A stretch of DNA of 64,000 bases. Source: Halococcus saccharolyticus DSM 5350 (lineage in GTDB: Archaea > Halobacteriota > Halobacteria > Halobacteriales > Halococcaceae). The first letter of the stretch is position 1, and each line of letters opens with the position of its first letter. Both the position numbers and the translations under genes were made by a program. This document shows, piece after piece, positions 784 to 1,637 of this stretch. A model generated the notes under the pieces. That model was given only the letters and a program-made list of their open reading frames with translations, was not told the origin of the DNA and made no database searches. The stretch covers positions 1-64,000 of the forward strand of contig NZ_AOMD01000005.1 in the NCBI RefSeq assembly GCF_000336915.1, given 5' to 3'.

Positions 784-1149
784 TCAGCCGAGAACGGTCC
801 GCACCACGAGCCACGCGACACCGATCGCTGCCAGCGAGCCGAGGAGATTGACGATGGCGTTCGCCGCCGCTGCGGCAGACTCCCCCTGTTCCACGAGCCG
901 AACCGTCTCGAACGAAAACGACGAAAAGGTGGTGAAAGACCCACAAGCGCCGGTCCCAAGGAAGAGGAGGATCTCCTCGCTAGCGCCGGCGAACGTCACG
1001 AGACCGAGCACGAAGCTCCCGAGAACGTTGACCGCGAGCGTTCCGAAGGGGTAGGTTTCGCTGTCGACGCGCTGGCTCACGTAAGTCCGACAGAGCGCGC
1101 CGACCGCGCCACCGGTGCCGACGAGATAGGCTGGATCGAGCGGGATCAC
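784..1149 (-). CDS. crcB2: Fluoride channel subunit CrcB/Fluc (second of a tandem pair)
   Basis: A small membrane protein of 121 residues of the CrcB/Fluc family, dual-topology channels that export fluoride passively. Four hydrophobic segments are visible, with the family motifs GTLAVNVLGSFVLGL and GSFTTFSSFSFE (the Phe-box region lining the pore). The GTG start at 1149 overlaps the stop of the upstream crcB (GTGA), which argues for coupled translation; a longer in-frame start at 1248 would add an arginine-rich stretch lying inside the upstream gene and was rejected. Because the two tandem proteins differ, I infer that they form a heterodimeric channel as in other two-gene Fluc systems. Confidence 0.92.
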   Translation of the reverse strand: MIPLDPAYLVGTGGAVGALCRTYVSQRVDSETYPFGTLAVNVLGSFVLGLVTFAGASEEILLFLGTGACGSFTTFSSFSFETVRLVEQGESAAAAANAIVNLLGSLAAIGVAWLVVRTVLG

Positions 1150-1538
1150 TCGCCAGCCCCTCCGTCGACGCGCCGGGCGAGGCTGCGGCCCGCGAGCACC
1201 CCGGCGAATCCGAGCGTGTAGGTGACGAGCACGTTCGCAATCATCCACACCGGCTCGGCGAGCAGCGTGGTCTGGAGTGCGAACGTGCTGTAGGTCGTCA
1301 GCGAGGAGAGAAAGCCGGTGGCGACGACGGCCCGCGTCCGCTCGGCGAGCACGCCGGCGTAGACCGCCTCGTAGAGGACGAACCCGAGAGCGAAGCTTCC
1401 GACGACGTTGACGACGAGCGTTCCGGCGGGCCCGGGAATCATACGCGCCACGAGATACCGGAGGTTCGAGCCCGCAAACCCGCCGATACCGATCAGTACG
1501 ATCGATTCGAGCGTCCGAAGCGGATGGGGTCCCGACAT
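1146..1538 (-). CDS. crcB1: Fluoride channel subunit CrcB/Fluc (first of a tandem pair)
   Basis: A 130-residue four-helix membrane protein of the CrcB/Fluc fluoride channel family. Motifs are GGFAGSNLRYLVAR near the N-terminus, GTLVVNVVGSFALGF, and the pore region GFLSSLTTYSTFALQ. The pore motif has Tyr where the partner gene has Phe (TTYSTF versus TTFSSF), so the two subunits are not equivalent. The ATG at 1538 is chosen because a GGAG Shine-Dalgarno (minus strand 1548-1545) sits six bases before it and a fluoride riboswitch ends just upstream; the frame is open further upstream (to 1697), but that would translate through the riboswitch. Expression is probably induced by fluoride. Confidence 0.93.
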   Translation of the reverse strand: MSGPHPLRTLESIVLIGIGGFAGSNLRYLVARMIPGPAGTLVVNVVGSFALGFVLYEAVYAGVLAERTRAVVATGFLSSLTTYSTFALQTTLLAEPVWMIANVLVTYTLGFAGVLAGRSLARRVDGGAGE

Positions 1539-1548
1539 GGCTGTCTCC

Positions 1549-1608
1549 GAAAAGGAGTCATCAGCTGGGTAACCAGCGGTTGGGGCAGGCGGACTCCATC
1601 GCCCGATA
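1549..1608 (-). ncRNA. Fluoride riboswitch (crcB motif RNA) controlling the crcB pair
   Basis: The minus-strand leader matches the fluoride aptamer. Read 5'-3' it has GGGCGATGGAGTCCGCC (1604-1588), an AACC linker, a perfect hairpin GCTGG-TTAC-CCAGC, then CTGATGACTCC (to 1554). The loop GGAGTC can pair with the tail GACTCC, replacing the GAGGCC/GGCCUC pair I recall from the Thermotoga aptamer, so the helix is kept with different bases. The tail CTCC (1557-1554) can instead pair with the crcB1 Shine-Dalgarno GGAG (1548-1545) across a TTTTC loop. I infer a translational ON switch: fluoride holds the tail in the aptamer and frees the ribosome site. A TATA box lies about 25 bp before the aptamer. 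Confidence 0.9.
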
Positions 1609-1628
1609 CCGTTCTCTCCGGAGCGACG

Positions 1629-1637
1629 GTATATCCG
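1629..1637 (-). promoter_or_regulatory. TATA box of the riboswitch-crcB transcript
   Basis: Minus-strand GGATATACC. It lies about 25 bp before the first conserved base of the fluoride aptamer, so transcription would begin almost exactly at the riboswitch. The spacing is typical for archaeal promoters. Confidence 0.6.

Follow-up and report, generated by a model that had tools for sequence, protein, structure and literature searches.

A fluoride riboswitch upstream of crcB in haloarchaea with an expression platform predicted to mask the start-codon region

Fluoride riboswitches and translational control in archaea

The crcB motif, the fluoride riboswitch class (RF01734), has been known from bacteria and archaea since 2010 (PMC2864571). 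As of 2021, according to the available text of PMC8241225, the only natural archaeal riboswitch shown experimentally was the fluoride switch of Thermococcus kodakarensis (Speed et al. 2018), which is presumed to act on translation. The available text of PMC13273304 classes fluoride riboswitches of Pseudomonas syringae and Burkholderia pseudomallei as translational; an SD-free platform abutting the AUG is not described in that text. At molar salt, the synthetic theophylline riboswitch E functions in Haloferax volcanii, where it masks the sequence as far as the AUG (PMC8241225). The mRNAs of this haloarchaeon are dominated by the leaderless type, and a Shine-Dalgarno (SD) sequence in the 5′-UTR is not used for translation (Kramer et al., PMC3986360).

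The element described here lies in a window of 64 kb, the whole stretch of DNA analysed, from Halococcus saccharolyticus DSM 5350. It resembles the RF01734 class in aptamer architecture, pseudoknot, crcB target and expected ON logic, but differs in its haloarchaeal expression platform, which abuts the AUG and has neither an SD nor a terminator. With the T. kodakarensis switch it shares an archaeal host, the response expected to fluoride and a presumed action on translation, although that switch is not haloarchaeal and the likeness, drawn from the available text of PMC8241225, covers these traits. The bacterial translational switches likewise combine aptamer control with an absence of termination. 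Riboswitch E, unlike the haloarchaeal platform, is artificial and has an SD within the masked region. The literature searched, which did not cover subscription papers, contained no account of a fluoride riboswitch in haloarchaea.

A full-length aptamer precedes the crcB pair

The preliminary description of this locus had proposed a complete fluoride aptamer on the minus strand with crcB directly behind it. Both points held. A cmscan of the whole window aligned RF01734 over its full length (1-64/64) at 49.6 bits (gathering threshold 34, E 9.7e-11), the sole match over gathering among all Rfam models, and the crcB pair, two overlapping genes, starts 6 nt past the aptamer (Table 1). No second copy occurs in the 3.45-Mb genome. 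Read along the minus strand, the order is GGATATACC, a short gap, GGGCGAUGGAGUCCGCC (P1 and the pseudoknot loop), a linker bearing CAACC, the second hairpin GCUGG-UUAC-CCAGC, UGAU, the pseudoknot tail GACUCC, UUUUC, GGAG, ACAGCC and the AUG. Direct reading confirms the complementarity of the loop GGAGUC to the tail GACUCC and the GCUGG/CCAGC hairpin, both of which had been pointed out earlier; the pseudoknot bases had been called different from those of the known aptamer but are essentially the Rfam consensus (GGaGUU/GACUCC).

Table 1. Features of the predicted fluoride-responsive leader and the crcB genes (window coordinates)
Feature	Position	Strand	Basis
TATA-box-like promoter element GGATATACC; predicted transcription start ~1604-1608	1628..1636	-	sequence
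Fluoride riboswitch aptamer (RF01734), full length	1545..1612	-	49.6 bits; single genomic copy
P1 hairpin, GGCG 1603-1600 / CGCC 1591-1588; loop GGAGUC 1597-1592 is the pseudoknot 5′ strand	1588..1603	-	Rfam match, covariation
Second aptamer hairpin (labelled P3), GCUGG 1577-1573 / CCAGC 1568-1564	1564..1577	-	Rfam match, covariation
Pseudoknot 3′ strand GACUCC; CUCC 1557-1554 doubles as 5′ arm of the alternative hairpin	1554..1559	-	covariation
Putative OFF hairpin, outer GCUG 1565-1562 / CAGC 1543-1540, inner CUCC 1557-1554 / GGAG 1548-1545	1540..1565	-	spacer shuffles, folding
GGAG, 3′ arm of the inner alternative hairpin; SD-like, unconserved beyond the genus	1545..1548	-	5/8 genus members
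crcB1, fluoride exporter subunit, ATG 1538-1536	1146..1538	-	PF02537 70.1 bits; NF010820 over cut-off
crcB2, second fluoride exporter subunit, GTG start, 4-nt overlap with the crcB1 stop	784..1149	-	PF02537 92.7 bits; TIGR00494 over cut-off; start read from sequence

A TATA box had also been placed 25 bp before the aptamer. The TATA-like element is present, but its spacing is about 27 nt to P1 and about 18 nt to the position where the Rfam model begins. Across 66 relatives, A+T content is highest at 31-35 nt before the aptamer anchor (0.50-0.77 per column), and an A+T-rich element at constant distance fits a promoter that would place the whole aptamer in the transcript. crcB lies downstream of the aptamer in nearly all relatives. 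For crcB1 itself, a GTG start further upstream would keep the frame open through the aptamer, but relatives such as G211 have a stop in that frame, and homology begins at the AUG.

Pairing in P1, the second hairpin and the pseudoknot was assessed over 62 distinct leaders: 99.3% of cells are paired, and 61 carry changes on both sides, against a shuffled mean of 19.3 (0 of 500 shuffles as high). The six pseudoknot pairs are formed in 100% of cells, with 48 cells changed on both sides, and the two most variable pairs take the types GC/AU/GU/CG and CG/UA/UG. By this sequence comparison the aptamer is a constrained RNA and not a chance look-alike. The covariance-model score, the covarying loop-tail pseudoknot and the position in the leader of a fluoride gene all point to RF01734, and the window element is supported as a true fluoride riboswitch, predicted to bind fluoride and Mg2+.

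Distribution and variant aptamers

Among 391 genomes sampled from the class, the RF01734 model has matches in 66, of which 34 exceed the cut-off, and the element is present in 8 of the 10 genomes of the window's genus. Natrialba asiatica and Haloarcula sebkhae are among its carriers. Two weak Rfam matches with no crcB, one in G288 and the second of G200, were set aside. A class-specific model, R1, built from 63 haloarchaeal leaders, brings the count to 111 of the 391 genomes, spread over 42 of 86 genera, although the weakest of its matches may be chance; the gain comes mainly from one family, f4. A search of the Haloferax volcanii genome gave no aptamer match. The complete signature occurs in 17 records, all haloarchaeal, among 257 Gb of bacterial and archaeal genomes, a search that may omit records near the window and whose pattern does not admit long second hairpins. 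In view of a class known since 2010, a signature met in this search only in haloarchaea and the lack of an earlier description in the literature searched, we place the window element in a known class and regard its clade-specific expression platform as new.

The Natrialbaceae-type members depart from the class in a lengthened second hairpin and a GC-rich pseudoknot. Among the variant aptamers (L062-L096 and L129-L162, mostly f4) the lengthening is great; the f4 pseudoknot is altered to GGGGCC/GGUCCC, and most f4 members score under the Rfam cut-off. Such variants would escape routine annotation. In L154, L156 and L157 (genomes G162, G032 and G338) degenerate GGTCGGCTGGTCGGCT-like repeats fill the second hairpin region, and G162 and G338 show additional weak model matches in tandem.

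In L033 (G358:C36:89647-89716, minus strand) and L035 (G296:C2:46753-46822, plus strand), a second aptamer lies about 415 bp upstream of the crcB aptamer and precedes a likely membrane protein of 72 amino acids (MGQQDTSRTNHT...), without a Pfam match, which is possibly a new fluoride-response gene. L042 (G200:C3:166591-166655, plus strand) is an aptamer of 49.7 bits with no crcB behind it, probably a remnant. Outside the haloarchaea, in the same phylum, L182, L185, L192, L195, L205 and others precede a protein of about 275 amino acids with a prenyltransferase alpha-alpha toroid domain (PF00432 in both proteins tested), which has no obvious link to fluoride, and the aptamers L197 and L199 precede a transporter resembling a cation/proton antiporter. 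Up to 7-8 fluoride aptamers are packed on both strands of some 12-13 kb at G631:C16:70098-82052 and G691:C3:201740-214613.

A predicted hairpin that runs into the AUG

In nearly all members a short distance separates the aptamer from the AUG, and the segment that runs into the AUG has its complement in the aptamer's 3′ part. The resulting conserved hairpin takes its 5′ strand from the aptamer (GGCUGA...), typically with CAGCC-AUG as partner, so that this pairing and the folded aptamer are mutually exclusive. The pre-AUG end is CAGCC or CAGCT, matching the aptamer GGCUG, in 37 of 66 members; other registers pair GUCAUC with GAUGAC, GAGUC with GACUC, CAUC with GAUG or GGAG with CUCC. The last paired base falls 0-1 nt before the AUG in 47 of 65.

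Spacer shuffles argue that this complementarity is more than chance. The aptamer 3′ part plus spacer folds at a set mean of -9.73 kcal/mol, while shuffled spacers give -5.48 (sd 0.27); all fold energies refer to standard salt and not to molar KCl. The corresponding z-score is -15.5 for the set of 65, -3.4 for the window's genus and -5.5 for 20 non-redundant spacers, the last being the fairer figure because the sequences are related and the set scores overstate independence. Individually, 31 of 66 leaders reach p<0.05. Pairing of the pre-AUG 10-mer with the aptamer 3′ part scores 13.36 against 9.20 (sd 0.26) after shuffling, an excess repeated in 32 further R1 loci (13.83 against 9.93, sd 0.37), which are not fully independent because R1 includes pre-AUG columns. 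Folding of the aptamer is predicted to raise accessibility of positions -6 to +3 by 0.255, compared with 0.045 (sd 0.028) for shuffled spacers.

Column-wise covariation of the hairpin shows no excess over shuffles, as expected from a 5′ strand that coincides with the almost unchanging aptamer core, and the case for the OFF pairing is therefore built on the spacer shuffles, the accessibility change and the second set of loci. The hairpin is paired in 79.7%, against 18.8-42.4% when slid. Individual changes, among them compensatory ones within genera, are consistent with pairing: in genus g13, GATGAC/GTCATC (G022, G081) becomes GACGAC/GTCGTC (G019); in L156 the aptamer GGCTG is GGCTA where the pre-AUG segment is TAGCC; and in G212, which carries a long insertion between aptamer and AUG, the complement GACCGUCUCAGCC still lies close before the AUG. 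The hairpin is weak or absent in a sizeable minority (e.g. G201, G325, G095, G290). Native spacers are not clearly better than spacers swapped from other families except in f4, because CAGCC is common to the families, and the minimum-free-energy fold of the longer leader alone (z -0.39) is uninformative because the pseudoknot cannot be represented.

In the window, the putative hairpin ends 1 nt before the AUG. Masking of the start-codon region, which is apparent for the clade as a set, is marginal for this leader alone (p = 0.052 against shuffled spacers). Its best fold combines CUCC/GGAG with a retained second aptamer hairpin and leaves much of CAGCC open, and GGAG, base-paired in the predicted free state, is released partially to completely by the modelled folding of the aptamer. 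Judging from these motifs, the window's genus appears to occupy an intermediate position, since pairs of both kinds, GGAG/CUCC and CAGC/GCUG, could form; in the predicted fold of the window's leader GGAG/CUCC dominates.

Shine-Dalgarno sequences and other accounts of control

The preliminary description had observed that the tail CUCC can pair alternatively with GGAG, 6 nt before the crcB AUG. This pairing, which would exclude the pseudoknot, is available in the sequence, but the further suggestion of that description, that masking of an SD is the point of the switch, was not supported by comparison. On that account a functional GGAG, once freed, would recruit the 16S 3′ end. The 16S rRNA of the window's genome ends in ...GGATCACCTCCT, on the strength of which GGAG could serve as a weak SD; GGAG recurs in five of the eight members of the genus; and methanogens and Archaeoglobi usually carry an SD-like motif at the corresponding pre-AUG position. 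Among 26 non-haloarchaeal members of the phylum, whose start codons were called crudely, an SD-like 4-mer is present in 17 and a 5-mer in 9, whereas 66 haloarchaeal members have the 4-mer before the AUG in 7 and the 5-mer in none (Fisher p 3e-7 and 4e-6, respectively). A further 32 Natrialbaceae-type members have no such motif (0/32), and the genus members without GGAG (G255, G249, G072) nevertheless keep other pairings. No conserved SD thus lies within the alternative pairing; complementarity abutting the AUG is conserved instead. Because SD motifs are scarce in haloarchaeal members and H. volcanii translation is indifferent to a 5′-UTR SD (PMC3986360), GGAG makes better sense as a partner of CUCC than as an SD, and SD masking is considered unlikely.

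A transcriptional switch, in which the U-run CUCCUUUUC after the pseudoknot strand would be an archaeal terminator overridden by the folded aptamer, is very improbable. Many bacterial fluoride riboswitches use termination, according to the available text of PMC2864571 and PMC13273304, and UUUU does occur at 1553-1550. However, 7 of 66 relatives have UUUU and none has UUUUU, the run in the window sits inside a hairpin loop and not after a stem, and the AUG follows within about 15 nt. With conserved U-runs lacking, and with them any conserved hairpin and U-run combination, termination was rejected.

There is also little to commend the idea that the aptamer is real and CAGCC a sequence signal for initiation instead of a pairing partner, regulation being exerted otherwise, for example through mRNA stability. 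The frequency of CAGCC/CAGCT and the uninformative column covariation would accord with it, but members without CAGCY-type ends still pair beyond chance (z -6.2; non-redundant among them -3.8), in other registers that also end at the AUG, and CAGCCATG is rare away from the crcB start, to which it is almost confined against a background of the window and fetched loci. Least credible is a decayed or untranscribed aptamer with crcB expressed from a leaderless transcript: leaderless mRNAs dominate in H. volcanii (PMC3986360) and in G200 and G005 crcB is missing or the aptamer is degraded, but all aptamer pairs in the window are intact, 8 of 10 genus genomes keep the element, the TATA element is positioned to include it and no AT-rich box lies about 27 nt before the AUG.

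A model for switching at the start codon

A fluoride-ON translational switch acting on crcB1-crcB2, in which pairing of the AUG region and not of an SD is regulated, is the reading we consider probable, and the translational ON switch proposed at the outset stands as the likeliest mode. Transcription would start just upstream of P1, so that the leader measures about 70 nt. When fluoride is absent, the aptamer's 3′ part (the end of the second hairpin, the junction and the pseudoknot strand) would pair with the segment ending at the AUG, through CUCC/GGAG and GCUG/CAGC in the window's genus and through GGCUG(A)/(U)CAGCC directly before the AUG in most haloarchaea, and the ribosome would be unable to load. 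Fluoride and Mg2+ would lock the pseudoknotted aptamer, which uses the bases of the OFF hairpin, leaving the start region single-stranded. Masking next to the AUG suits haloarchaea because their translation mostly starts without an SD.

The simplest account of its origin starts from an older archaeal platform in which an SD is the partner of the pseudoknot strand; haloarchaea would then have moved the mask to the SD-less bases at the AUG. On balance, we favor a shift of the haloarchaeal platform from SD masking, as in methanogens and Archaeoglobi, to SD-less bases abutting the AUG, which would make this a widespread natural SD-independent translational riboswitch.

Implications for haloarchaeal translation

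Initiation on leadered, SD-less haloarchaeal mRNAs is poorly understood, and a natural switch bears on this question. The element is found in up to 111 of 391 genomes, and its sequence predicts that accessibility of the AUG region alone is the control point. If this is true, the switch would offer an in vivo probe of translation start on leadered haloarchaeal mRNAs and would provide a native inducible element that functions at molar salt. It also suggests a path by which the platform of one aptamer evolves as the start signal of the ribosome changes.
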